A stretch of DNA of 64,000 bases from Bradyrhizobium algeriense. Its GTDB lineage: Bacteria > Pseudomonadota > Alphaproteobacteria > Rhizobiales > Xanthobacteraceae. Of the stretch, positions 6,194 through 29,171 are shown piece by piece (positions within the stretch are counted from its first letter, which is position 1; every line of letters begins with the position of its first letter). A program made the position numbers and the translations under genes. The DNA is taken from the NCBI RefSeq assembly GCF_036924595.1, contig NZ_JAZHRV010000001.1:5456001-5520000 (forward strand). Reading direction: 5' to 3'. Below the pieces are notes generated by a model. It was not told where the DNA came from and searched no databases. It saw nothing but the letters and a program-made list of their open reading frames with translations.

Positions 6194-7159
6194 TCAGGCC
6201 GCATGTTGCGTGGTGGCCCGGCTCGCGACCTCCGCAAATCCCTGGCGCCACGACGGATGCGCCGGCCGCCAGCCCAGTTCCTGCCGGGCCTTGGCGTTGG
6301 AGCCTGCCCCTACCTCGGTCATCATCGAAACCAGGTGCTCCCCGGCGAACAGCCGGCCAAGCCAGGCCGGCACGCGAATCGGCGGCCTGGCGCCGAGCAA
6401 GGCGGCAAGGGCGGGCAGCCATTCGCTGACCTGCGCCGGCTCATCATCGACGATGTTGTAGATGGCGCCGGACTTGCCGCGCTCGACCGCAGCCACGGTA
6501 GCGGCGGCCGCATCATCGACGTGGATGAACGACCACTGGCCGCCACCGCCGCCGATCAGCGGCACGCGCCGGCGGCGCAACTGGTCGATCATGGCGCGCG
6601 AGAGCATCCCGGTGTCCGGGCCGTAGAATGATCCATATCGCAGGACAATCCCCTCAGGGTTCGCCGAGCCGGTGACGGCGTCCTCCAGATGCCGGATCGC
6701 TTGCAGGGTGCGGTGCAGCTCCTCCGGCGGATCGGGATCCAGCGCATCGGCCTCCGTCTTGACCTGTTCGCCGCCGCGGCCGTAGGTCCAGCCGCAGAAG
6801 CTCTGGGCGATGAAACGTTTCACCCCGGCTTCGCGGGCGGCCGCCAACAGGAAATCGGTGCCTTCCGTGCGCAACCGGTTGGTGGTGGCGAAGGCACGAT
6901 CGAAATGCCTGATATCCGTGACATTAGCCAGATCGGTCATCTGGTCGATGATGATGTCGGGCCTCGCCGCGATCACGGTGTCGAGAATGGCCGGCGCGTC
7001 GAGCCCATTGGCGATCGCAGGTTCCGCGCCCATTCGTTTGATGATCGCGGCCTTCGCCGGCGTTCGCGTTGTGCCGACGACGGAATGACCGGCTGCAATG
7101 AGCTGCGGAACGAGCTGAAGGCCGACAGCGCCGGTGGCGCCCGCAACAAGAATTCGCAT
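6194..7159 (-). CDS. NAD(P)-dependent epimerase/oxidoreductase (extended/atypical SDR)
   Basis: A 321-residue Rossmann-fold protein opening MRILVAGATGAVGLQLV, with the GxxGxxG dinucleotide-binding motif at residues 7-13. The region following TDLANVTDIRHFDRAF and the FIHVDDAAAATVAAVERG stretch are typical of NAD-dependent epimerase/dehydratase family members. The usual YxxxK pair is not obvious: the position after the serine strand reads FCGWTYGRGGEQVK, which may supply Tyr and Lys. The substrate is unknown. It ends close to the dispersed element at 6086-6186 and is separated from the L,D-transpeptidase by a clear terminator, so it is its own unit. Confidence 0.85.
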   Translation of the reverse strand: MRILVAGATGAVGLQLVPQLIAAGHSVVGTTRTPAKAAIIKRMGAEPAIANGLDAPAILDTVIAARPDIIIDQMTDLANVTDIRHFDRAFATTNRLRTEGTDFLLAAAREAGVKRFIAQSFCGWTYGRGGEQVKTEADALDPDPPEELHRTLQAIRHLEDAVTGSANPEGIVLRYGSFYGPDTGMLSRAMIDQLRRRRVPLIGGGGGQWSFIHVDDAAAATVAAVERGKSGAIYNIVDDEPAQVSEWLPALAALLGARPPIRVPAWLGRLFAGEHLVSMMTEVGAGSNAKARQELGWRPAHPSWRQGFAEVASRATTQHAA

Positions 7160-7303
7160 GGCGTGATCCTCATATTCGTTGCGACCGAGCGGCAGGTAGT
7201 CGGAGCGAATGTGAAATCAAGCGTGCGAATGTGGCGGCGGTGAAAATCTGTGCGAGTTGCGGAACTCAGATCAGCCGGGGGCCGATTGCACCTCGTACCC
7301 CAA

Positions 7304-7330
7304 CAAAAAAGGCGCGCTCTCGGCGCGCCT
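7304..7330 (-). terminator. Rho-independent terminator after the L,D-transpeptidase gene
   Basis: Read on the minus strand, an 8-bp stem AGGCGCGC / GCGCGCCT with a short CGAGA loop is followed directly by a run of six T. It lies 27 bases beyond the stop codon of the L,D-transpeptidase gene (7357), a canonical intrinsic terminator. Confidence 0.9.
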
Positions 7331-7356
7331 CAGATGCTTGTTCGACGACCGCCCGA

Positions 7357-8658
7357 TCAGCGAATCGTGACCGGCGCGGGCAGCGGCGGCACCACCGTCG
7401 TCGGCTGCTGCGCGCCGGGAACAGGCGCCAGTTGGGCCTGAGAAGCCGGTCCCGGGGCTGCTGCGGCAGCCGGGCCAGCGGACGGCGACGGGGCGGCCGA
7501 CGCGCTTGCGGTGTTGGCGGGCGGCGCCCCACCGGGCATCACCACCACGCGGGTGCCGACCTTGGCGCGCTCGAACAGATCCGAGACGTCCTCGTTCAGC
7601 ATGCCGATGCAGCCCGAGGAGACGAACTTGCCGATCGTCGAGGGCTGGTTGGTGCCGTGGATGCGGTAAATGGTCGAACCGAGATACATCGCCCGCGCGC
7701 CGAGCGGATTGCCGGGGCCGCCGGCCATGAAGCGCGGCAGATAGGGCTGACGCTCGATCATCTCGGTCGGCGGATGCCAATCCGGCCACTCGGCCTTGCG
7801 GCTGATCTTCTGCACGCCGTTCCAGGTAAAACCGTCGCGGCCGACGCGGACGCCGTAGCGGATCGCGCGGCCGCCACCAAGCACGTAATAGAGGTGGGTG
7901 TTCGAGGTATCGACGACGATGGTGCCCGCGGGCTCCTTGGTCGCAAAGGACACTTCCTGACGGCGCAGGTGCGCCGGAAGCTGCGCAGGGCCCACTTCCG
8001 GCTGCTCTTCCGGCGGCAGCGCAGCGAGCTGCACCGGCCTGCCGTCGGCGCCAACCGAAGGCTGCTGCGGTTGCGGGAGCGCGCCGGTAGCGCCGGGCGC
8101 CGGTGCGGCGCCGATTGCTCCCGGCGGGCGCAGGCCAGCGCGGTCGTCGTTCGGATAAACGATGCCGGCGCCGGGAATGCGGCTGTCGCCGCGATCCGAA
8201 TAGGCCGGCTGCTGCTGCTGACCGGGCGGGCGGTCCGCATAGATCACCGGCGGCGGACCGGCCGGGCGGCCGTAACGCGGATCGTCGGGCGAAAGGATCG
8301 GGCCAGTCGGCGTCGGGGCGCCGCGGTCAGAATAAACAGGCGTGCCGCGGTCCGAATAGGCCGGGGCGGCGGCCGGACGGCCATAGCGCGGATCGCTGGG
8401 TGACAGCACCGGGCCGGGCGGCGGCAACGCGGCCGCGTTCTGACCGTCCGGCGCGTCGTCATCATCAAGTGCGTCGAAATCGGGTTCGCCGGGGCGGCGG
8501 CGTTCATCAGTCGCATAGCCACCGGGAACATACGGTCCCGGAGCCGTCGAATAGAGCTGACCTTGGGCGGGATAGCCCTGCTGCGCATGGGCGAGCGAAG
8601 TACCCGCCAAGCCAGCGGCCATGGCGGCACAAATCGTCAGAATGCGGTTATTCATCAT
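7357..8658 (-). CDS. Secreted L,D-transpeptidase (YkuD domain) with proline-rich repeat region
   Basis: A 433-residue exported protein. The start is set at ATGATGAAC (8658), which gives the signal peptide MNNRILTICAAMAAGLAGTSLAHA; a longer frame to 8724 adds a polar stretch. Residues about 30-200 are low-complexity, with two copies of a GPxLSPxDPRYGRPA unit and three YSDRG units. The YkuD domain follows (TIVVDTSNTHLYYVLGGGRAIRYGVRVGR), with catalytic Cys in SSGCIGM and the upstream His in YRIHGTN. The family forms 3-3 peptidoglycan cross-links or attaches proteins to peptidoglycan. An Ala/Pro tail of about 60 residues follows the catalytic domain. A terminator closes the unit at 7304-7330. 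Confidence 0.93.
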   Translation of the reverse strand: MMNNRILTICAAMAAGLAGTSLAHAQQGYPAQGQLYSTAPGPYVPGGYATDERRRPGEPDFDALDDDDAPDGQNAAALPPPGPVLSPSDPRYGRPAAAPAYSDRGTPVYSDRGAPTPTGPILSPDDPRYGRPAGPPPVIYADRPPGQQQQPAYSDRGDSRIPGAGIVYPNDDRAGLRPPGAIGAAPAPGATGALPQPQQPSVGADGRPVQLAALPPEEQPEVGPAQLPAHLRRQEVSFATKEPAGTIVVDTSNTHLYYVLGGGRAIRYGVRVGRDGFTWNGVQKISRKAEWPDWHPPTEMIERQPYLPRFMAGGPGNPLGARAMYLGSTIYRIHGTNQPSTIGKFVSSGCIGMLNEDVSDLFERAKVGTRVVVMPGGAPPANTASASAAPSPSAGPAAAAAPGPASQAQLAPVPGAQQPTTVVPPLPAPVTIR

Positions 8659-16579: not shown

Positions 16580-17604
16580 TTATTGCGGATTCCGGATATC
16601 GATTACCTTGGCCAGTTCGTTCATCGCTGATCGCTGCTTTTCGATCCCCGATTTCAGTTCCTCGGTCGTGCCGCTCAACACAATGTGCCCACCTGCCTCC
16701 AGTTTACCGCGAACATCTGTATCGCGACAGACGGCGGCAACGTCGGCGGCAATTCGGCTTCGCACGGCCTCCGGCATGATCTTGCTACCGAAGATGCCCG
16801 CCAGCCCCTCGATTTCAAGCTCAGGATATCCGAGTTCGCGCGCGGTCTTGACATCGGGCAGCGTGGCGGCGCGGGTCGGGTTGACGACGCGAGAAAGCGC
16901 GCCTTTCCGGCTTGAACGGGCGAGGATGACGCGGTCAATGAGGTCAGAAGTGCCTGGATGCGACCTTCCCCCAGATCAGCCTGGGGCTGGGAGGCGTCGC
17001 GATAACTGACAAAGCTCATCTTCAGATCGTGTTGCTTCAGGAATGCCGAAAATACAAATCGCGGCAGGGTCGGGCCCGAATTCCAGGCATATTTTTCGGG
17101 GCTCGCCCGCAACGCCTCGATCAGCTCCGGGATGCTGTTGACGGATAGCTGGTTGCTGACAGTGAGCGTCAAGGCGATCGCCGTGGTTGCGGAGATCGGC
17201 ACCAGATCACGGTTGACGTCGTATGGCAGCTTCTCGACCAGCATCGGCGCAACTGTGATCGAGCCGGCCACGGTATACAACAGCGTATGATCATCCTGGC
17301 TTGCCACGAACGAACCGACGCCGATCGTGCCCTCGGCGCCGGGCCGATCCTCGACGACGACCGGCTTACCCCATTTCTTGCCAAGCGCATCGGCGAAAAT
17401 CCGGGCCGCCGCATCGTTGGCACTTCCGGGCGGAAACGTCACGACCATCTTGACCTGCCGCTCGGGCCAATCCGCGCGCGCGGAGATCGGCGCAGCAAGA
17501 GCCATGACGAAAGCCGCAAGACCCGCGAGCGCGCGCAGCCGGGCGAATTTTTCAAGGGTCGGGCTACGAGCAGCCCATGAACCAGATATCTGCAAGAACG
17601 TCAC
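16580..17604 (-). pseudogene. TctC/Bug-family tricarboxylate-transporter binding protein, frameshifted
   Basis: A periplasmic solute-binding protein of the tripartite tricarboxylate (Bug) family. The GTG start at 17604 has GGGAGG five bases upstream; the N-terminus holds a signal peptide (AGLAAFVMALAAPISARA) and then WPERQVKMVVTFPPGSANDAAAR. The reading frame is lost near 16889-16891: after QAGKARFLA the sequence has CTCGCGTCGTCAACC where a single extra C would give the expected LAVVNPTRAATLPDV. Continuing in that frame restores KTARELGYPELEIEGLAGIF and the C-terminus MPEAVRSRIAADVAAV to the stop at 16580. Either a recent one-base deletion or a sequencing error. No TctA/TctB genes are nearby. 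Operon position: between MarR (16-base gap) and the methyltransferase (19-base gap). Confidence 0.85.
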
Positions 17605-18172: not shown

Positions 18173-18203
18173 ACAAATCACATGGGTAGTCAATCTCAAT
18201 AGA

Positions 18204-18276
18204 TGTATACCTTTAAGGTTCCTAAATACCTTATATGCAGGAAATTTGCGGAGCACTGCCAGATTGTGTATACATA
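18204..18276. promoter_or_regulatory. Paired GTATAC palindromes, candidate GntR operators of the vanA-type operon
   Basis: GATGTATACC (core 18205-18210) and TGTGTATACATA (core 18268-18273) share a GTATAC core with flanking TG/CA, matching the general TGT-ATAC-A half-site style of FCD-type GntR regulators. The centres are 63 bases apart, six helical turns. They lie upstream of the Rieske gene start at 18302, and the encoded GntR follows that gene. Confidence 0.5.
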
Positions 18277-18301
18277 TGGAATTCAAGCACGGAGCCAAGC
18301 C

Positions 18302-19351
18302 ATGCCATCCTCGTTCCCGCTCAATGCCTGGTACGCCGCCGCCTGGGATGTTGATCTCAAGCACGCGCTGTTTCCGCGCACGATCTGCGGCAAGCATGTC
18401 GTGATGTACCGCCAGTCCGACGGGCGGGCCTGCGCGCTGGAGGATGCCTGCTGGCACCGGCTGGTGCCGCTGTCGAAGGGGCGGCTCGACGGCGACACGG
18501 TCGTCTGCGGCTATCACGGGCTGAAATACAATGCGCAGGGCCGCTGCACCTACATGCCCTCGCAGGAAACCATCAATCCTTCCGCCTGCGTGCGCGCCTA
18601 TCCCGTCGTGGAACGACATCGTTTCATCTGGCTGTGGATGGGCGATCCGGCGCTGGCCGACCCCGCGCTGGTGCCCGACATGCACTGGAATGACGATCCG
18701 GCCTGGGCCGGCGACGGCAAGACCATTCATGTGAAGTGCGACTACCGCCTCGTGGTCGACAATTTGATGGACCTGACCCACGAGGCTTTCGTGCACGGCT
18801 CCAGTATCGGCAACGATCACGTCGCCGAAGCCCCCTTCGACGTCACCCATGGCGACAAGACCGTAACCGTGACGCGCTGGATGAAGGGCATCGATGCGCC
18901 GCCCTTCTGGGCCGCGCAGTTGCAGAAGCCGGGCGCGGTCGACCGCTGGCAGATCATCAACTTCCAGGCACCCGGCACCGTCAATATCGACGTCGGCGTG
19001 GCACCCGCGGGCACCGGCGCGCCGGAGGGCGACCGCTCGCAGGGCGTCAATGGCTTTGTGCTCAACACCATGACGCCGGAGACCGAGACTACCTGTCACT
19101 ATTTCTGGGCCTTCGTCCGCAATTACCGGACCACCGAGCAGAAGCTGACCACCGAAATCCGCGAGGGCGTTGCCGGCATCTTCCACGAGGATGAAATCAT
19201 CCTCGAAGCGCAGCAGCGCGCGATGGACGAAAATCCGGACCGCACCTTTTACAACCTCAATATCGATGCCGGCGCGATGTGGGCGCGGCGCGTGATCGAC
19301 CGCATGGTCGCGCGCGAAACCGGACCGCAAAGCGTGCAAGCCGCGGAGTGA
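18302..19351 (+). CDS. Rieske non-heme iron oxygenase, VanA-type O-demethylase oxygenase subunit
   Basis: A 349-residue terminal oxygenase. The Rieske 2Fe-2S motif is C-W-H near residue 51 and C-G-Y-H about 20 residues later (VVCGYHGLKY). The mononuclear iron site lies in NLMDLTHEAFVHGSSIGND, with the two histidines and preceding Asp/Asn. Family members hydroxylate or O-demethylate methoxy-aromatics such as vanillate, receiving electrons from a VanB-type reductase, which is encoded two genes downstream. The substrate cannot be assigned. The ATG at 18302 (MPSSFPLNAWYAAAWD) has GGAG upstream and matches the family start; the frame extends upstream to 18203 through the regulatory region. First gene of a three-gene operon. 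Confidence 0.92.
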   Translation: MPSSFPLNAWYAAAWDVDLKHALFPRTICGKHVVMYRQSDGRACALEDACWHRLVPLSKGRLDGDTVVCGYHGLKYNAQGRCTYMPSQETINPSACVRAYPVVERHRFIWLWMGDPALADPALVPDMHWNDDPAWAGDGKTIHVKCDYRLVVDNLMDLTHEAFVHGSSIGNDHVAEAPFDVTHGDKTVTVTRWMKGIDAPPFWAAQLQKPGAVDRWQIINFQAPGTVNIDVGVAPAGTGAPEGDRSQGVNGFVLNTMTPETETTCHYFWAFVRNYRTTEQKLTTEIREGVAGIFHEDEIILEAQQRAMDENPDRTFYNLNIDAGAMWARRVIDRMVARETGPQSVQAAE

Positions 19352-19355
19352 GGTC

Positions 19356-20108
19356 ATGAGCGAACGCGACGCCGAGCGCTCCGTCTCGCAGACCGTGCGC
19401 GCGCAACTCGCGCTGCGCGATATGATCCTGTCCGGGCGGCTGCGCTCGGGCGAGCGCATCTCCGAGCTGCAGGCGGTCGATATCACGGGCGTCTCGCGGA
19501 CGCCGGTGCGGCTGGCGCTGGTGCGGCTGGAGGACGAAGGCCTGCTGCAGGCGATCCCGTCCGGCGGATTCATGGTGAAGGCGTTCACCGAGCGCGACAT
19601 TTTGGACTCGATCGAGCTGCGCGGCACGCTGGAGGGCCTCGCGGCCCGCTTTGCGGCCGAGCGCGGCGTCAGCGCGCGCAGCCTCGAGCCGTTGAAGGAA
19701 TGCCTAGGCGATCTCGACCAACTGGTTCGTCAGGACCCGATTTCGGTCGAAGCGTTTTCCGCCTATGTCACCATGAACGCGCGCTTTCACGCGCTGCTCA
19801 ACGAACTATCCGCAAGCGCGCCGCTGATCCGCGAGATCGACCGCGTCTCCGCGCTGCCGTTCGCCTCCCCAAGCGCTTTTGTGATGGCGCAGTCGGCGTT
19901 GCCGGAAGCGCATCAGATCCTGCTGCTCGGGCAGGATCACCACCGCATCGTGGTGGACGCGATCGAGAACCGCGAGGGCGCGCGGGCCGAGGCCGTGATG
20001 CGCGAGCATTCGCGCCTCGCCGCGCGCAATTTGCGGCTCGCGATCCGAAACCGCACGCATCTCGAACTGATGCCGGCGCTCGCCTTGCTCAAATCGTCAG
20101 CCGAATAG
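19356..20108 (+). CDS. GntR-family transcriptional regulator (FadR/FCD subfamily)
   Basis: A 250-residue regulator with an N-terminal winged helix (residues about 12-75: QTVRAQLALRDMILSGRLRSG then ISELQAVDITGVSRTPVRLAL) and an all-helical FCD ligand-binding domain. It begins four bases after the Rieske gene and ends nine bases before the reductase gene, so it lies inside the operon it probably controls, like VanR between or beside vanA and vanB in other proteobacteria. It would be expected to release DNA when the aromatic substrate is present. The two GTATAC palindromes upstream of the operon are its likely targets. Confidence 0.92.
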   Translation: MSERDAERSVSQTVRAQLALRDMILSGRLRSGERISELQAVDITGVSRTPVRLALVRLEDEGLLQAIPSGGFMVKAFTERDILDSIELRGTLEGLAARFAAERGVSARSLEPLKECLGDLDQLVRQDPISVEAFSAYVTMNARFHALLNELSASAPLIREIDRVSALPFASPSAFVMAQSALPEAHQILLLGQDHHRIVVDAIENREGARAEAVMREHSRLAARNLRLAIRNRTHLELMPALALLKSSAE

Positions 20109-20117
20109 GGATCGCCG

Positions 20118-21104
20118 ATGCGTTTTGCCGAGCAATGGAGCTGGTGCACGGTCGAAGCTGTGCGCGACGTGACGCCCACGATCCGCGAATTCAGACTGCG
20201 CCCCGAGAACGGCCGCGTGCCGCCCTACCCGGCCGGCAGCCATATCGGCGTCAGCGTGCTGATCGACGGACAGCCCGCGCGGCGATCTTATTCGCTGGTG
20301 GAGAACAGCGATCCCAACACCTATCGCATTGCGGTGCGCCGGGCGCCGGACAGCCACGGCGGCTCGCGCGGCATGTGGAGCCTGACGCCGGGCGCGCGGA
20401 TCGAGACTTCAAATCCAGCATCCCTGCTCGAAATCGACTGGACGAGGAAGAACTATTGCCTGATCGCCGGCGGCATCGGCATCACCCCGATAACAGGTAT
20501 CGCCGCCGCGCTGCGCCGCAGGAATATCGACGCTCCCCTGCACTACGCCGTCAAATCGCGCGGCGATGCCGCCTTCCTCGACGAACTGACGGCGCTGCTC
20601 GGCGATCGCTTGATCGTGCACGCCTCCGATGAAGGCGCCCGGCTCGACCTCGATGCCACCTTCCGCGCCTTGCCGGATGATGCCATCGCCATCATGTGCG
20701 GGCCGATGCGGATGCTGGAAGCGGCGCGGCGCGCCTGGAATGACGCGGGACGCGCGCCGGCCGATCTGCGCTATGAAACCTTCGGCTCCAGCGGCCTGAA
20801 GCCGACGGCCGAATTCCGCGTGCGGCTGAAGGGCACCGACACCGAACTCGTGGTGCCACAGAACAGCTCGATGCTGGACGCACTGAACGGCGCCGGTTTT
20901 GAGGTGATCTCAGACTGCCAGCGCGGCGAATGCGGCGTCTGCGCCGTCGACGTCGTTTCCGTCGACGGCGAGATCGATCACCGCGACGTGTTCTTCAGCG
21001 ATCAGCAGAAGCACGACAATCGCAAGATCTGCCCCTGCGTGTCGCGCGCGATCGGCGTCGTCACCATCGACACGCTGTACCGGCCGGAAGCGGCGCATCG
21101 TTAA
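20118..21104 (+). CDS. VanB-type oxidoreductase (FNR-like reductase with C-terminal 2Fe-2S ferredoxin domain)
   Basis: A 328-residue phthalate-dioxygenase-reductase-type protein. The flavin-binding region has RRSYSLVE (RxYS motif). The NAD-binding region is LIAGGIGITPITGIAAAL and later IMCGPMRML. The plant-type ferredoxin domain at the C-terminus holds CQRGECGVC and the fourth Cys in KICPCVS. It passes electrons from NAD(P)H through flavin and 2Fe-2S to the Rieske oxygenase encoded two genes upstream. The domain order and length match VanB. The gene begins nine bases after the GntR stop with the conserved start at 20118. Confidence 0.93.
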   Translation: MRFAEQWSWCTVEAVRDVTPTIREFRLRPENGRVPPYPAGSHIGVSVLIDGQPARRSYSLVENSDPNTYRIAVRRAPDSHGGSRGMWSLTPGARIETSNPASLLEIDWTRKNYCLIAGGIGITPITGIAAALRRRNIDAPLHYAVKSRGDAAFLDELTALLGDRLIVHASDEGARLDLDATFRALPDDAIAIMCGPMRMLEAARRAWNDAGRAPADLRYETFGSSGLKPTAEFRVRLKGTDTELVVPQNSSMLDALNGAGFEVISDCQRGECGVCAVDVVSVDGEIDHRDVFFSDQQKHDNRKICPCVSRAIGVVTIDTLYRPEAAHR

Positions 21105-23208: not shown

Positions 23209-24120
23209 TCAAACACTTCGCCAAGGCGGCTTCGGTTGAAAGCGGGTTTTCAGGCTTTCAACAAAATGCGAAACACGAGCTGAGACCCCGCGACGCGTTG
23301 GCACCAAAGCCAGAATGTCGGCGCCTTCGAACTCATATTCAACAAACAGCCGACGCAGTTCGCCACGTTTGACGGATGGTGCTACGTCCCATTCGGACCT
23401 GAGTGCGACGCCCAACCCCGCGACGGCCCACTCGCGAACAACCTCGCCATTGTTGCTCGTGAGTGCCGGACTTATTCGAAGCGCCTCTGATCGCCGGGAT
23501 GATGTGTGGCCGTTTTTGTAGCGCCACAGCGTCACGTCCTCTTCGTTTTCGCGAACGGAGAGACAGGCATGCTGCGCCAGCTCTCGAGGGTGTGACGGCG
23601 TTCCGCATCGTCGAAGATAGCTGGGACTGGCGCATACCCAGCGCGCGTTGCGGGCAAGAAGATGAGCAACCCACGAGGAATCCCGGACAGTTCCAATATG
23701 GATGACGACGTCAGCGTCGACATTGCTGTTCCAGGGCGCTTCGGAAAGATCCAACGTCGCACGCACTTGCGGGTGGTCGCGAATGAATGCCGCCATGACG
23801 GGCGCGACATGGATCCTGCCGAAACCAAACGGCGCGACAACCCGCAGGGGGCCGGCAAATACGCCACCGCTGAGACTGTCCGCCAGCCCATCGACACGCG
23901 CCAACAGCGACTGGGCTTCATGGACAAGTTGTTCGCCTTCCGGCGTGAAGCACAGCCCTCGGGAGTTGCGAACGACAAGGTTGACCCCGAGAACAGCCTC
24001 CAGCTTCTTCAATCGCATGGAAAGAGCCGGCGGCGTGACATCGAGCGCCCTAGCCGCCGCGCTTAGCGAGCCGGTTCGGCTCAGGGCCACCACAAACCGC
24101 AAATCCTCAAGCGCGATCAT
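23209..24120 (-). CDS. LysR-family transcriptional regulator
   Basis: A 303-residue LysR-type regulator. The N-terminal HTH is LRFVVALSRTGSLSAAARALDVTPPALSMRLKKLE (quoted in part), followed by the periplasmic-binding-like effector domain with LRVVAPFGFGRIHVAPVMAAF. It is divergent from the HAD - Bug - D-threonine-aldolase-family - RidA operon, with 70 bases between start codons, the classic LysR arrangement, and is the probable regulator of that operon. A TTCC-N5-GGAA dyad with T-N11-A spacing lies in the shared intergenic region. Confidence 0.93.
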   Translation of the reverse strand: MIALEDLRFVVALSRTGSLSAAARALDVTPPALSMRLKKLEAVLGVNLVVRNSRGLCFTPEGEQLVHEAQSLLARVDGLADSLSGGVFAGPLRVVAPFGFGRIHVAPVMAAFIRDHPQVRATLDLSEAPWNSNVDADVVIHIGTVRDSSWVAHLLARNARWVCASPSYLRRCGTPSHPRELAQHACLSVRENEEDVTLWRYKNGHTSSRRSEALRISPALTSNNGEVVREWAVAGLGVALRSEWDVAPSVKRGELRRLFVEYEFEGADILALVPTRRGVSARVSHFVESLKTRFQPKPPWRSV

Positions 24121-24126
24121 TCAATT

Positions 24127-24139
24127 TTCCTGAAGGGAA
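24127..24139. promoter_or_regulatory. Candidate LysR box (T-N11-A dyad)
   Basis: TTCCTGAAGGGAA is an interrupted palindrome, TTCC-N5-GGAA, whose outer bases fit T-N11-A. It begins seven bases from the LysR start codon, in the 70-base divergent promoter region. Confidence 0.45.
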
Positions 24140-24190
24140 GAGATAATCCTACTTAAACACAACTGATCACCGGGATGATAGAGGTTTGGC

Positions 24191-24820
24191 ATGACCATGC
24201 CACGCGCCGTTCTTTTCGACCTTCTCACCGCGCTCCTCGATTCCTGGAGCGTCTGGAATGCCTCCGCCGGATCCGAAGCATCGGGCCGAACCTGGAGGGC
24301 CGAGTATCTCCGCCTGACATATGGTTGCGGGAGTTATGTCCCGTATGAGGATCTGGTCCGCCAGGCTGCGCGCACCACCGGTCTCGCTCCGTCGGTGGCA
24401 GACGCCCTCGAAGCAAATTGGCAGTCCCTCCCGGTCTGGAGCGGCGCGCAGGCTGCGCTCGACCGGTTGGCTGGACGAACGCGCCTGGCAGTCGTCACCA
24501 ATTGCTCGACGCGCCTTGGACGAATGGCCGCCGCCCGCCTGCGCACGCAATGGGATGTCGTGATCACCGCGGAGGAGGCCGGCTTCTATAAGCCCGATCC
24601 CCGCCCCTATCGTCTGGCCCTGGACATGCTGGGCGTGTCGGCCGCGGACGCTGCGTTTGTCGCGGGCTCCGGCTACGACCTCATCGGCACCTCAGCCGTC
24701 GGACTGCGCACCTACTGGCACAATCGCGTGGGCCTGGCGCGTCCCGATGGCGCACCGGTAGCCGAGAAAGAGTCTGCGAACCTCGATGACCTCATTCCAT
24801 GGCTGGAGGACTTTTCGTGA
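24191..24820 (+). CDS. HAD-superfamily hydrolase, 2-haloacid-dehalogenase-like
   Basis: A 209-residue HAD protein nearest to the type II haloacid dehalogenase group. Motif I is LFDLLTALLDSW, with the nucleophile expected at Asp10. Motif II is VVTNCSTR, motif III lysine is in FYKPDPRPY, and motif IV is VAGSGYDLIGTSAVG, followed by the dehalogenase-like YWHNR. Motif I is unusual: the position four residues after the nucleophile is Ala instead of Thr. Role in this operon unknown; a C-O or C-X hydrolysis step on the imported substrate is possible. First gene of a four-gene operon; its TGA overlaps the GTG of the next gene. Confidence 0.85.
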   Translation: MTMPRAVLFDLLTALLDSWSVWNASAGSEASGRTWRAEYLRLTYGCGSYVPYEDLVRQAARTTGLAPSVADALEANWQSLPVWSGAQAALDRLAGRTRLAVVTNCSTRLGRMAAARLRTQWDVVITAEEAGFYKPDPRPYRLALDMLGVSAADAAFVAGSGYDLIGTSAVGLRTYWHNRVGLARPDGAPVAEKESANLDDLIPWLEDFS

Positions 24821-25791
24821 TATCTCGCATGTTGGCGACCTTGCTCGCGGTCGGATTGAACATCTCTGCGGCAACGGCTCAGGGGTTTCCCGAGAAGCAA
24901 TTGACGCTGATCGTTCCGTTTCCCGCCGGTGGCCCGAGCGATGCGCTTGGCCGGGCGGTGGCTCAGGCCATGGCGGCCCACTTGAAGCAATCCATCGTCG
25001 TGGAAAATATCGGCGGCGCCAGCGGCACCATCGGCCTGACCAAGTTGCTAAAGGCGCCTGCGGATGGATACTCGCTCGGCTTTGGCACCATCGGCACACA
25101 TGTCGCGAATGTCGCGCTCTTCAAGCGCCTCCCTTACGACCCAGTCGCCGACTTCGAGCCTGTGGGCCTCGCTGGGATGGCCTCAACGCTTCTTGTCGCG
25201 AAGTTGGGCTTTCCGGCGTCCAATCTACAGGACTTCGTCACCTATGCCCGTGCCAACCGCGAGAAACTCACCTATGGCAGCGCCGGCGTCGGATCGATTT
25301 CGCATTATGCCTGCGTTCTGCTGCTGTCGAACCTGAAACTGAACATCACCCATGTTCCATATCGGGGCGTTGCCCCAGCGATGAACGATCTCATGGGTGG
25401 TCACGTCGACTTCATGTGCGACCAGACCACCACCGCGCTACCCCAAGTGCTCGGCGGAACGATCAAGGCAATCGCAGCGCTGAGTGATCAGCCCCCGCCG
25501 CAGGCGCCTCAAGTATCCACTGCGGCAGCGGCCGGCTATCCGGGCGTGAACCTCCGCTCCTGGAACGCGATCTTCGTGCGGAAAGGAACGCCCGCGCCGG
25601 TGCGTCAGAAATTAAATGACGCCTTGCGCGCAGCACTCGCCGACCCGGATGTGACGCGGCAAATGACGGCGGTTGGTGTCGAACTGCCACGGGGAGCGGA
25701 TCTCGAGCCCGGTGCCGTCAGCGCGCTGATCGCTCAAGGGCTGGAGCACGACGTACCAGTGCTGCGCGCCAAGGGCGAATATCTGGACTAA
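24817..25791 (+). CDS. Bug/TctC-family periplasmic solute-binding protein
   Basis: A 324-residue tripartite-tricarboxylate-type binding protein. I place the start at GTG 24817, overlapping the preceding stop as GTGA, with GGAGGA seven bases upstream. It gives the signal peptide MLATLLAVGLNISAATAQ. The mature protein opens FPEKQLTLIVPFPAGGPSDALGR, the family hallmark, followed by VVENIGGASGTIGL and LTYGSAGVGSISH. These proteins bind carboxylic acids or small amphoteric molecules for uptake by TctAB, not encoded here. Context suggests the bound ligand is the substrate of the downstream PLP enzyme. Confidence 0.92.
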   Translation: MISRMLATLLAVGLNISAATAQGFPEKQLTLIVPFPAGGPSDALGRAVAQAMAAHLKQSIVVENIGGASGTIGLTKLLKAPADGYSLGFGTIGTHVANVALFKRLPYDPVADFEPVGLAGMASTLLVAKLGFPASNLQDFVTYARANREKLTYGSAGVGSISHYACVLLLSNLKLNITHVPYRGVAPAMNDLMGGHVDFMCDQTTTALPQVLGGTIKAIAALSDQPPPQAPQVSTAAAAGYPGVNLRSWNAIFVRKGTPAPVRQKLNDALRAALADPDVTRQMTAVGVELPRGADLEPGAVSALIAQGLEHDVPVLRAKGEYLD

Positions 25792-25793
25792 GC

Positions 25794-26927
25794 ATGACCA
25801 CATCTCTCTCGGATATCGAAACGCCCGCTGCCGTCATCGACGTCGCGCGCACGCAGCGTAACATCGGCCGCATGCAGGACCGGATGAACGCCTTGGGCGT
25901 CAGTTTCCGTCCCCACGTCAAGACGACCAAATGCGTCGCAGTTGCCGACAGGCAGCGCGCCGCAGGCGCGAACGGCATCACAGTCTCGACTCTCCGCGAG
26001 GCTGAGGAGTTTTTTGCCGCGGGCTACGACGATATTCTCTACGCGGTCTGCATCGCTCCGCACAGGCTCAGCCGGGCCCAGGGACTGCGTGATCAGGGTT
26101 GCCGTCTCAGAATTCTGGTCGACTCGGTCGAGGCCGCGCAAGCCGTCGTCGAGGCGCAGTCGCGTCGCGATCCTTTCGAAGTCCTGATCGAAGTCGACAC
26201 TGACGGGCACCGCTCAGGTGTGGGCCCCGAGGATGAGCGTCTCATCGAGATCGGTCGCATTCTTCACACCGGTGGCGCCACACTTTGCGGCGTGCTGACT
26301 CATGCCGGAAATTCCTATGAACTCGACGATCCCGAGGCCTTGGAGCACTTGGCGGAGCAGGAGCGTGCCTTGAGCGTACGCGCGGCCGAACGGCTTCGCG
26401 CTGCCGGCCTTCCCTGCCCGATAGTGAGCGTCGGATCGACCCCGACAGCACTGTCCGCCCGTGCCCTGGACGGCGTTACGGAAGTGCGATGCGGCGTGTA
26501 TGTGTTCTTCGACCTGTTCATGACGAATGTCGGCGTCTGCGCGATCGACGATATTGCACTTTCTGTGCTGACGACCGTGGTCGGCCATCAGTCGGAAAAA
26601 GGCTGGATCATCGTCGATGCCGGATGGATGGCGATGAGCCGAGACCGCGGCACTGCTCGTCAGCGCCATGATTACGGATACGGGATCGCATGCGACTTGG
26701 CGGGGCACCCGCTCAAGGGAGACTTGGTCATGATCGCGGCAAATCAGGAACATGGGATCCTCGCCGCGACGAACGGACGTCTCATCTCTCTTGAAAATCG
26801 CTTCCCGATTGGCACACGACTTCGAATACTCCCGAATCACGCCTGTGCAACCGGAGCGCAATTCTCCGAATATCACGTCGCCACGGACAACGGCATTGAA
26901 ACATGGCGGAGGTTTAATGGCTGGTGA
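25794..26927 (+). CDS. PLP-dependent D-threonine aldolase / D-serine dehydratase-family enzyme (DSD1 type)
   Basis: A 377-residue fold-type III (alanine-racemase-like) PLP enzyme. The PLP-binding lysine lies in FRPHVKTTKCVAVADRQ (about residue 43). The C-terminal metal site is in LPNHACATGAQF, with the conserved His and Cys. Family reactions are retro-aldol cleavage of D-3-hydroxy amino acids, dehydration of D-serine or D-threo-3-hydroxyaspartate; which one applies cannot be read from sequence. It follows the binding-protein gene by two bases and overlaps the RidA gene by 11 bases, indicating translational coupling. Dehydratase products are enamines, which fits the RidA partner. Confidence 0.92.
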   Translation: MTTSLSDIETPAAVIDVARTQRNIGRMQDRMNALGVSFRPHVKTTKCVAVADRQRAAGANGITVSTLREAEEFFAAGYDDILYAVCIAPHRLSRAQGLRDQGCRLRILVDSVEAAQAVVEAQSRRDPFEVLIEVDTDGHRSGVGPEDERLIEIGRILHTGGATLCGVLTHAGNSYELDDPEALEHLAEQERALSVRAAERLRAAGLPCPIVSVGSTPTALSARALDGVTEVRCGVYVFFDLFMTNVGVCAIDDIALSVLTTVVGHQSEKGWIIVDAGWMAMSRDRGTARQRHDYGYGIACDLAGHPLKGDLVMIAANQEHGILAATNGRLISLENRFPIGTRLRILPNHACATGAQFSEYHVATDNGIETWRRFNGW

Positions 26928-27309
26928 CATTGACTACCTGGAACCTCACGGAATGGCGGCTCCCGGTGGGCACTACAGTCATGCTGTGAGAGCTGGTGCT
27001 TTTGTTTTTGTGTCTGGACAATTGCCGATCTCCGCCAATGGTGCGAGGCTTGCTGACAAGGACTTTCAGACCCAAGTGCGTCAAGCATTGGCCAATCTCG
27101 CGACGGCCTTGGAGGCGGCAAACAGCGCTGTCGACAAGCTCATTCATGTTCGCGTCTACGTCACGGACATCAATGACTGGCCGGTCTTCGACAGCATCTA
27201 TTCCGAATGGATCGGCGCCGTCCGACCGGCCCGCGCGGTCGTTCCCGTCCCGACGTTGCACTACGGCTTTCGTGTCGAGATCGAAGCAGTGGCGGGCATA
27301 GCGCAATAA
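26917..27309 (+). CDS. RidA-family enamine/imine deaminase
   Basis: A 130-residue Rid/YER057c/UK114-family protein. The start is ATG 26917 with GGAGG five bases upstream; the start overlaps the end of the PLP enzyme gene. Family motifs are YSHAVRAGAFVFVSGQLPI, VRQALANLATALEAANSAVDKLIHVRVYVTD and the C-terminal VPTLHYGFRVEIEAVA. The usual catalytic Arg of the RidA archetype (in a R-x-x-V stretch) is represented by RPARAVVPV. RidA hydrolyses reactive enamine/imine intermediates made by PLP dehydratases, consistent with its coupling to the preceding gene. Last gene of the operon; no obvious terminator was seen after it. Confidence 0.9.
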   Translation: MAGDIDYLEPHGMAAPGGHYSHAVRAGAFVFVSGQLPISANGARLADKDFQTQVRQALANLATALEAANSAVDKLIHVRVYVTDINDWPVFDSIYSEWIGAVRPARAVVPVPTLHYGFRVEIEAVAGIAQ

Positions 27310-27527: not shown

Positions 27528-29171
27528 CTAGGCCTGCACCGGAAACCTTACGGCCTCCAGCGCGGCCTTGCCGCGGATCATGTCGGAGGCCTTGTCGGCA
27601 ATCATCAGCGTCGAGGCGTTGAGATTGGCCGAGATCATGCGCGGCATGATCGAGGCGTCGACGACGCGCAGTCCCTGCAGCCCGTGGACGCGCAACTGGT
27701 CGTCGACTACGGCCCATTTGGCGTCCGCCGGTCCCATGCGGCAGGTGCAGCCGGGATGGAATGTGGTAGTGCCGCGCTCGGTAGCGGCGGCGAGGAATTC
27801 GTCGTCGCTCTGCACCTTCGGTCCCGGAAAATCTTCATAGGCGTAATAGGGCGCGAGCGGCTTGGACGCGAGCAGACGGCGCGCCAGCTTCATGCCGGCG
27901 ACGACGACGCGGCGATCGATCTCCTCGACCAGGTAATTGGTCTGGATGATCGGCGGCGCGAATGGATCGGCGGAGCGGATGCGGACATAGCCGCGGCTCT
28001 CGGGGCGCTGCTGCCATGAGGCCACCGTCATGCCGGGCTCATCCTCGAGCTGGCCTTGCACGCCTTCCTTGTAGCTCGCCGGTGTAAAGGTGAGCTGCAG
28101 GTCGGAGCTTTCGGTGGTCTCGCCGGAGTGCCAGAAGCAATAGACCATGGTCGGCGACAGCGAGAGCAGGCCGCGCCGTGTCGTCGCCCATTTCAGCGCC
28201 TCGACCCACAGGCTCACGCCGCGCCTGAGTTCATTGATGGTCCTAATGTTCTTGACCCGCGCGACCGAACGCGGCGCGTAGTGATCCTGCAGGCCTTCGC
28301 CGACGCCCGGCAGCGCGTGACGGACCTCGATGCCATGCGATTGCAGCAATTCCGGCGAACCGACGCCGGACAATTGCAGCACCTGCGGCGAGTTGTAGGT
28401 GCCGCCGGAAAGAATGACTTCCTTGCTGGCGCGCACTTCGACGGGCACGCCGCCCTTGCCGCCCTTGAGATAGCGCACGCCGACCGCGCGCTTGCCCTCG
28501 AAGATGAGGTTGGTGACATGCGCATGGGTGCGCACATCGACATTGCCGCGCTTCCGCGCCGGATGCAGGAACGCCTTGGCCGCGCTCATGCGCAGGCCCT
28601 TCTCGATGGTGCGCTGGCAGTAGGACACGCCCTCCTGGATCGCGCCGTTGTAATCGGGGTTGCGCGGAATCCCGAGGCTCATAGCGCCTTCCATGAAGGC
28701 CTCGCACAGCGGATCCTGCCAGTCCATGGTGGTGACGGTAAGACTGCCGTCGCGCCCGCGATAGGTTTCGTCGCATTCGCCGACGCGCCGCTCCAGCCGC
28801 TTGAAATAGGGCAGTATGTCCGGATAGCCCCAGCCGCGGTTGCCGAGCTGCGCCCAGGTGTCGAAATCCTGGCGCTGGCCGCGGTTGTAGATGTGGCCGT
28901 TGATCGAGGACGATCCTCCCAGCGTCTTGCCGCGCGGCGCATAGATGCTGCGGCCGCCGGTCCACGGCCCCGGCTCTTGGCTGTAGCCCCAGTTGACGCT
29001 CTTCATGTGGAACGTCTTGATGAAGCCGGCCGGCAGGTGGATGTAGGGATGCCAGTCGCTCGGCCCCGCCTCCAGTACGCAGACGCGGGCCGTAGAATCT
29101 TCGCTAAGCCGGTTGGCGAGCACGCTGCCTGCTGAGCCCGCGCCGATAATCACGTAATCGAACGTTTCCAT
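27528..29171 (-). CDS. GMC-family FAD oxidoreductase (choline/alcohol dehydrogenase type)
   Basis: A 547-residue flavoprotein. The FAD motif is YVIIGAGSAGSVLANRLSED at the N-terminus; the GMC signature region is PRGKTLGGSSSINGHIYNRG. The catalytic His/Asn region near the C-terminus is TTFHPGCTCRMG and RVVDASIMPRMISANLNA. GMC enzymes oxidise alcohols to aldehydes or ketones; the length matches choline dehydrogenase-like bacterial members, but the substrate is not determined. No betaine genes are nearby. The start is conserved. It lies 24 bases downstream of a GNAT gene on the same strand. Confidence 0.93.
   Translation of the reverse strand: METFDYVIIGAGSAGSVLANRLSEDSTARVCVLEAGPSDWHPYIHLPAGFIKTFHMKSVNWGYSQEPGPWTGGRSIYAPRGKTLGGSSSINGHIYNRGQRQDFDTWAQLGNRGWGYPDILPYFKRLERRVGECDETYRGRDGSLTVTTMDWQDPLCEAFMEGAMSLGIPRNPDYNGAIQEGVSYCQRTIEKGLRMSAAKAFLHPARKRGNVDVRTHAHVTNLIFEGKRAVGVRYLKGGKGGVPVEVRASKEVILSGGTYNSPQVLQLSGVGSPELLQSHGIEVRHALPGVGEGLQDHYAPRSVARVKNIRTINELRRGVSLWVEALKWATTRRGLLSLSPTMVYCFWHSGETTESSDLQLTFTPASYKEGVQGQLEDEPGMTVASWQQRPESRGYVRIRSADPFAPPIIQTNYLVEEIDRRVVVAGMKLARRLLASKPLAPYYAYEDFPGPKVQSDDEFLAAATERGTTTFHPGCTCRMGPADAKWAVVDDQLRVHGLQGLRVVDASIMPRMISANLNASTLMIADKASDMIRGKAALEAVRFPVQA

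Follow-up and report, generated by a model that had tools for sequence, protein, structure and literature searches.

The window analysed here, a stretch of 64,000 nucleotides from the 8.10-Mb, single-contig genome of Bradyrhizobium algeriense, contains a gene for a LysR-family regulator and, divergent from it, a tightly packed operon coding for a hydrolase of the haloacid dehalogenase (HAD) superfamily, a periplasmic binding protein of the Bug/TctC type, a pyridoxal 5'-phosphate (PLP)-dependent enzyme and a protein of the RidA/YjgF family (Table 1). These genes probably form a LysR-linked catabolic cassette for C4 amino dicarboxylates of the 3-hydroxyaspartate type, which would yield oxaloacetate and ammonia either from D-3-hydroxyaspartate itself or from a 3-substituted aspartate that the HAD protein has opened beforehand. 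The proposed route comprises four steps of unequal certainty: (i) the Bug protein would capture an aspartate-like dicarboxylate; (ii) in the least certain step, Asp10 of the HAD protein might displace a leaving group from a carbon adjacent to a carboxylate (a halide, or the N or O of a strained ring), which would give 3-hydroxyaspartate; (iii) the PLP enzyme is predicted, on strong homology, to dehydrate D-threo-3-hydroxyaspartate; (iv) RidA, judged by its family, would hydrolyse the enamine/imine set free in step (iii), iminosuccinate, and so yield oxaloacetate plus ammonia.

Table 1. Genes and putative regulatory boxes of the cassette (positions within the window).
Feature	Position	Strand	Basis
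LysR-family regulator	23209-24120	-	PF00126 and PF03466 above cut-off
Putative LysR operator region	24121-24159	.	Two boxes, each at a fixed distance from the start of LysR
Box 1	24130-24134 (CTGAA)		TCA-N7-TGA (T-N11-A); LysR-HAD intergenic region
Box 2	24153-24159		TTAAACA; LysR-HAD intergenic region
HAD hydrolase, DeHa4A clade	24191-24820	+	PF13419/PF00702 above cut-off; Asp10 nucleophile; dehalogenase-like
Bug/TctC periplasmic binding protein, GTG start	24817-25791	+	PF03401, 186 bits (cut-off 27)
PLP enzyme	25794-26927	+	PF01168 and PF14031; 535.2 bits and 67.0% identity to 3wqc
RidA/YjgF-family protein, 130 aa from ATG at 26917	26917-27309	+	PF01042; RidA-family matches in PDB

Each of the five genes scored above the Pfam cut-off for its own family, which bears out the assignments of an earlier note made from the bare sequence (LysR, HAD, Bug, a PLP enzyme of the D-serine dehydratase type, and RidA). 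The gene packing described there, with the LysR gene divergent, was exact to the base: the HAD stop and the Bug start share the sequence GTGA (24817-24820), two bases separate the Bug stop from the PLP enzyme start, and the RidA ATG, with a GGAGG just 5' of it, lies 11 bases inside the end of the PLP enzyme gene. The reading built on these genes, a chain of uptake and catabolism for a substituted D-amino acid, was supported in part, as set out below.

The best match of the PLP enzyme among solved structures was the D-threo-3-hydroxyaspartate dehydratase of Delftia sp. HT23 (3wqc; 535.2 bits), with 252 of 376 residues identical, followed by a predicted aldolase/racemase (330.8 bits), D-serine dehydratase (3anu; 205.8 bits) and D-threonine aldolases (103.1 bits at most). 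Residues K43, H349 and C351 align with K43, H351 and C353 of 3wqc, that is, with the PLP lysine and the His/Cys metal pair; in two deposited variants, 4pb3 and 3wqg, alanine takes the place of this His and this Cys, respectively. Both D-threo- and L-erythro-3-hydroxyaspartate are substrates of the Delftia dehydratase, which requires a divalent metal (PMC8071972; here and below, cited papers are represented by the parts of their text that were accessible). By strong homology, the window enzyme is predicted to dehydrate D-threo-3-hydroxyaspartate with the help of a metal held at H349/C351. The earlier note had placed the enzyme between D-threonine aldolase and D-serine dehydratase; the D-serine dehydratase family stood, while the choice between these two activities is no open one, as the identity of 67% and the His/Cys pair put the protein with D-threo-3-hydroxyaspartate dehydratase. 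Support also exists for the substrate class suggested there, a hydroxylated D-amino acid. The closest named locus for this enzyme was that of Bradyrhizobium lablabi (95%), and the host genome itself holds one second PF14031 place, which is far less alike (124 bits).

The binding protein fits such a substrate. Its best solved matches were BugD (2f5x; 223.9 bits) and 6hke (218.5 bits), which we take to be MatC, and it carries the carboxylate-binding AGGxxD loop in the form AGGPSD. BugD has aspartate as ligand and the AGGxxD loop serves to bind carboxylate (PMC5812351), and MatC of R. palustris has malate (PMC11452294). The window Bug protein may therefore capture a C4 dicarboxylate. The Bug repertoire of the host genome is large, with 73 places for TctC-type binding proteins against 10 for TctA; no TctA gene was found within 300 kb of the window Bug gene (TctB was not searched for). 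The RidA protein reached 111.5 bits against PF01042, above cut-off, when the longer frame 26752-27309 was run, and its PAR motif lines up with the PAR of 2dyy and 2cwj; the arginine of this motif is presumably the catalytic one, R105 in E. coli RidA. The nearest NCBIfam equivalog of the LysR protein was TtdR, yet the score of 178.7 bits falls short of the cut-off (398), so the regulator is not TtdR itself.

Conservation of the cassette was examined at the best 80 of 466 places matching the PLP enzyme in a collection of genome contigs (genome_contigs), a sample that leans to close, mostly burkholderial relatives and includes four short contigs (L047, L057, L071 and L078); neighbours were counted by tblastn within 4.5 kb. 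A HAD gene lies upstream of the PLP enzyme gene on the same strand at 51 loci (37 at a distance of up to 60 bases, 14 at 61-1200 bases), LysR is found at 56 loci and RidA at 29, in 28 cases directly downstream of the PLP enzyme gene; 17 loci have both HAD and RidA. Chance alone would not account for such recurrence. HAD-positive loci occur in Burkholderiaceae (25/34), Comamonadaceae (12/23), Alcaligenaceae (3/7), Reyranellaceae (4/4) and Nitrobacteraceae (3/3). Viewed from the other side, a called PLP enzyme gene stands beside HAD at 38 of 45 HAD loci; among the other seven, L109 is a gene-caller miss of a locus with both genes (L030), L121 has its PLP enzyme gene further off and divergent (L128), and the remainder are L110, L111 and L131-L133, taken up below. 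The order is unusual at L181, with HAD downstream. Bradyrhizobium lablabi (L028) and Paraburkholderia xenovorans LB400 (L067) both carry the HAD-PLP enzyme pair. Of 74 HAD matches among genomes from the latter's family, 30 loci were fetched, and the pair was present at all 30. On a far branch of five tree rows, the PLP enzyme is about 45% identical and HAD still lies beside it.

The HAD gene itself is unevenly distributed. It was found in at least 74 of 299 genomes of the P. xenovorans LB400 family, at least 5 of 399 in the family of Paracidovorax konjaci (with 9c9e as query), at least 6 of 397 in the order, at least 6 of 398 in the phylum, and in none of 14 listed genomes of the same genus; these are lower bounds, with up to 7 candidates scored per genome (up to 10 in the P. 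xenovorans family). Among 198 genomes of the family to which the window belongs, 24 yielded a total of 25 PLP enzyme places; 12 of these places, the window included, have HAD in the same locus of about 4 kb. On a tree of the PLP enzyme with 109 rows, the HAD label needs 16 changes, which speaks for repeated gain and loss (105 rows are different, four identical pairs being probably the same genomes in two collections; L030, L047 and L103 were left out). PLP enzyme matches were present in 71 plasmid records; of four regions opened, two came without a gene table, and in the tables of the other two (L115, L116), which are incomplete, no HAD is entered next to the PLP enzyme gene. The earlier note had proposed to look for co-occurrence of the genes in other genomes, and held that scattered genes or unrelated partners would speak against its reading: the cassette does recur, linked to LysR, and the HAD-PLP enzyme pair holds together, while Bug and RidA come and go. 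It looks as if PLP enzyme and LysR form the core, to which HAD, Bug and RidA are added, or from which they are lost, as modules.

Some loci deserve separate mention. Two of the 29 genomes without HAD at the PLP enzyme locus hold HAD elsewhere (L110, L111). Of these two genomes (L122, L123), one has a decayed cassette in which Bug and PLP enzyme remnants run together and LysR is broken, and the other has no PLP enzyme gene between Bug and RidA; both hold a PLP enzyme homologue elsewhere (L061, L045). At L165, L166 and L167 a HAD protein from the DeHa4A clade, about 50% identical, is encoded, with no PLP enzyme gene near, beside a GTPase-like gene that we take from its look to be of the EngB type. 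An SsuA/NMT1-like binding protein lies beyond LysR in four Variovorax-type loci (L030, L032, L042 and L046; the one at L032 was scored and has a permease). A TauD dioxygenase occurs near one of the 80 loci (L044), and an agmatinase near L029 (not counted at other loci). At L058, an M81 metallopeptidase (6421-7974; MlrC-like, with 144.3 bits where the cut-off is 999) directly precedes the dehydratase gene and is itself preceded by Bug, and a peptidase of the same cluster, plus Bug, follows the dehydratase gene at L061; such peptidases could release hydroxyaspartate from peptides. ABC-transporter genes follow RidA at L178 and L179, judged by eye from the protein starts.

Close homologues of both previously crystallised enzymes meet in two genomes that are called Delftia-like here because of their identities to 3wqc and 9c9e. 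Genome G446 (6.6 Mb) has the gene order LysR/HAD-Bug-PLP enzyme-RidA; the PLP enzyme encoded there shares 96.6% identity with 3wqc, and the HAD protein reaches 444 bits against 9c9e, the crystallised fluoroacetate dehalogenase 4A (DeHa4A) of Delftia acidovorans D4B. The G516 proteins are also close to these structures (HAD, 97% identity to 9c9e; PLP enzyme, 90.8% to 3wqc); here RidA follows the PLP enzyme gene, and no Bug lies between HAD and PLP enzyme.

The window HAD protein is 70% identical to DeHa4A and was placed in the DeHa4A clade by sequence and fold. Residues D10, R36, K134, Y140 and D163 are invariant and align with D11, R42, K152, Y158 and D181 of 2no4. The best structural matches were dehalogenases, with kinds other than dehalogenases and their kin ranking lower; azetidine-2-carboxylate hydrolase and cis-epoxysuccinate hydrolase, both HAD proteins, are among the structural relatives. 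The protein stayed below the cut-off for haloacid dehalogenase type II (TIGR01428; 91.6 against 125.4 bits). HAD dehalogenases attack the carbon next to a carboxylate, and the 3-carbon of a 3-substituted aspartate is so placed. Since HAD proteins attack beside a carboxylate and open strained rings, 3-haloaspartate or aziridine-2,3-dicarboxylate is a first guess for the substrate. The HAD protein may dehalogenate a halo D-amino acid, as the earlier note suggested. Ring opening is exemplified by AzhA, the azetidine-2-carboxylate hydrolase of Aspergillus (PMC8016842). More speculative, and with a small chance of being right, is the wider proposal that HAD proteins of the DeHa4A type have a new activity, namely to open or dehalogenate 3-substituted aspartate (aziridine-2,3-dicarboxylate or 3-haloaspartate). 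The product, 3-hydroxyaspartate, would then be taken on to oxaloacetate and ammonia by the dehydratase and RidA encoded alongside.

Against such a role, the main rival holds that the HAD protein is a true haloacetate or fluoroacetate detoxifier that rides with an amino-acid operon, its product, glycolate, being unconnected with the PLP enzyme. The Delftia relative with 70% identity was indeed deposited as a fluoroacetate dehalogenase, and DeHa4 defluorinates mono- and difluoroacetate (preprint, PMC13419579). We nevertheless consider this unlikely. Several alpha- and betaproteobacterial families have the gene upstream of the PLP enzyme gene (51 of 80 loci), and it also adjoins genes for PLP enzymes that are only about 45% alike (L024-L027, L180); a passenger should not keep one partner. 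Moreover, the Km values of DeHa2 and DeHa4 for fluoroacetate, about tenfold below 59.8 mM and thus millimolar (PMC12184663), are weak for a dedicated substrate.

Several observations weigh against a cassette dedicated to 3-hydroxyaspartate-type substrates. At 29 of 80 loci no HAD lies beside the PLP enzyme gene, and in 27 of these 29 genomes, some of them partial metagenome-assembled genomes, no member of the clade was found anywhere at E 1e-40 (positive controls, 3/3). The dehydratase therefore does not need HAD, which fits HAD as a module that widens the substrate range. Conversely, L131-L133 carry HAD with no PLP enzyme gene near. A close Bug gene, between HAD and PLP enzyme, was present at only 12 of 80 loci, and an ABC transporter replaces it at some; 34 of the 51 HAD loci lack RidA nearby at the threshold used. 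The window RidA protein scored 96.0 bits against TIGR00004, below the NCBIfam cut-off of 106.25. In the HAD protein, T15, S119, S176, S177 and N178 of 2no4 are replaced by A14, T103, A, G159 and S160; T15, S119, S177 and N178 presumably matter in dehalogenases, and as several of these active-site residues are missing, the reaction may differ from that of the 2-haloacid dehalogenases. Finally, the Delftia dehydratase may take D-serine too, so that the window enzyme might accept such substrates as well.

The last point leads to an operon for D-serine or D-3-hydroxy-amino acids in general, in which the PLP enzyme would make aminoacrylate, RidA would clear it, and HAD and Bug would act on unrelated metabolites. 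RidA classically clears aminoacrylate, and the family includes the D-serine dehydratase 3anu; even so, we rate this reading somewhat below fluoroacetate detoxification. Similarity to the 3-hydroxyaspartate enzyme is far higher (535 versus 206 bits), and the Bug protein is nearest to binders of C4 dicarboxylates. Further, some relatives adjoin a homologue of threo-3-hydroxy-L-aspartate ammonia-lyase, which was found near the PLP enzyme gene at four loci without HAD (L069, L095, L098 and L102; 595.6 bits for L069 and 587.1 bits for L095 against NF005454, cut-off 452). No place in the host genome exceeded that cut-off.

It is very improbable that the PLP enzyme is an aldolase for D-threonine or, like BhcC, for 3-hydroxyaspartate, which would split a beta-hydroxy amino acid into glycine and an aldehyde. 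The fold family is the same and BhcC (NF045642) was the sole NCBIfam match, but identity with BhcC was rejected at 118.3 bits against a cut-off of 690. D-threonine aldolase was rejected on the metal pair, which is His/Cys in D-threo-3-hydroxyaspartate dehydratase, as here, and His/Asp in the aldolase (His347/Asp349 in AxDTA; PMC4401734); an aldolase would, moreover, presumably leave RidA with nothing to do. Least probable of all is that the HAD protein removes phosphate from a phosphorylated intermediate or from damaged PLP. Phosphatases are common among HAD proteins, but here Leu12, two positions after the nucleophile (D10-L11-L12), is invariant in the clade, so that the DxD phosphatase motif is absent, and the best structural matches are dehalogenases.

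The region between LysR and the next gene was compared in 36 cases (35 loci plus the window, drawn from 84 loci), with LysR divergent, its match starting within residue 3, and a gap of 20-250 bases. A CTKAA box at +9 or +15 from the LysR start was present in 31 of 36 regions, and 33 regions had a TNAANCA box close to +32 or +38 (shuffle mean, 0.21 for each); 30 regions, including the window, had both (shuffle mean, 0.002). In these figures the offsets were picked after the sequences had been seen, and near relatives are not independent. The two-box element is common to Alpha- and Betaproteobacteria, and LysR may act through it as a putative operator. In eight of the 36 regions LysR faces the PLP enzyme gene directly, without HAD; both boxes are kept in six of them (L057, L061, L068, L086, L093 and L097; not in L078 and L102), which suggests that the target that stays the same is the dehydratase gene.

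Outside the cassette, a Rieske-type oxygenase (named by its look), a GntR-FCD regulator and an FAD/2Fe-2S reductase (both named by Pfam) lie in a row at 18203-21104. A link of the Rieske pair to the cassette was rejected: the pair near the Delftia-like loci L124/L125 is only 29-34% identical and was therefore treated as coincidence. A partial TctC/Bug match on the minus strand at 16873-17406 covers profile positions 2-181 only and may be what is left of a Bug gene. The gene at 27528-29171, convergent with the operon, codes for a choline dehydrogenase-like GMC oxidoreductase (564.8 bits; cut-off 605); a GMC match lay within 4.5 kb of the PLP enzyme gene at 2 of 80 loci.

A literature search that covered few subscription papers returned no paper naming this gene set, none joining hydroxyaspartate with a haloacid dehalogenase and none linking the Delftia dehydratase with the Delftia HAD protein; 3-hydroxyaspartate, dehydratase and RidA were joined only in a yeast ethanol study, and the dehydratase was named in three papers, PMC4401734 and PMC8071972 among them. 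As far as this literature goes, the gene set is new, while the PLP enzyme is already known. D-hydroxyaspartate is part of the siderophore ornibactin (PMC9958762), so a natural supply exists, and the cassette points to a fate for this compound. In Delftia-like genomes and many other Alpha- and Betaproteobacteria, relatives of two crystallised Delftia enzymes, the dehydratase and the defluorinating HAD protein, are operon partners. This partnership places the two in one physiological context, suggests a few substrates to try, and bears on the natural role of C-F-cleaving HAD proteins.

Among known systems, the dehydratase of Delftia sp. HT23 resembles the window PLP enzyme most closely (67.0% identity over 376 residues, PLP lysine, His/Cys metal residues); it is described, in the accessible part of its literature, as a single protein without an operon or a HAD, Bug or RidA partner, whereas the window enzyme sits in an operon. 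The beta-hydroxyaspartate pathway (BhcABCD) deals with the same metabolite as proposed here. Its BhcC is distantly related to the window PLP enzyme; none of the five window genes corresponds to a Bhc-type partner, and the BhcC cut-off was missed by far. The Bug protein has its nearest solved relatives in the aspartate-binding BugD and the malate-binding MatC, with which it shares the AGGxxD loop. DeHa4A is known, in the text accessible, from defluorinase assays. The L-2-haloacid dehalogenases DehIVa, L-DEX and ZgHAD share with the window HAD protein the fold and the nucleophile Asp, Arg, Lys, Tyr and Asp, yet only 24-27% identity, and L-azetidine-2-carboxylate hydrolase and cis-epoxysuccinate hydrolase only 19-23%. 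If HAD proteins of this clade do act on 3-substituted aspartate, fluoroacetate defluorination would be a side activity, and the window protein would join the C-N ring opening beside a carboxylate of the azetidine-2-carboxylate hydrolase with the C4 dicarboxylate chemistry of cis-epoxysuccinate hydrolase.

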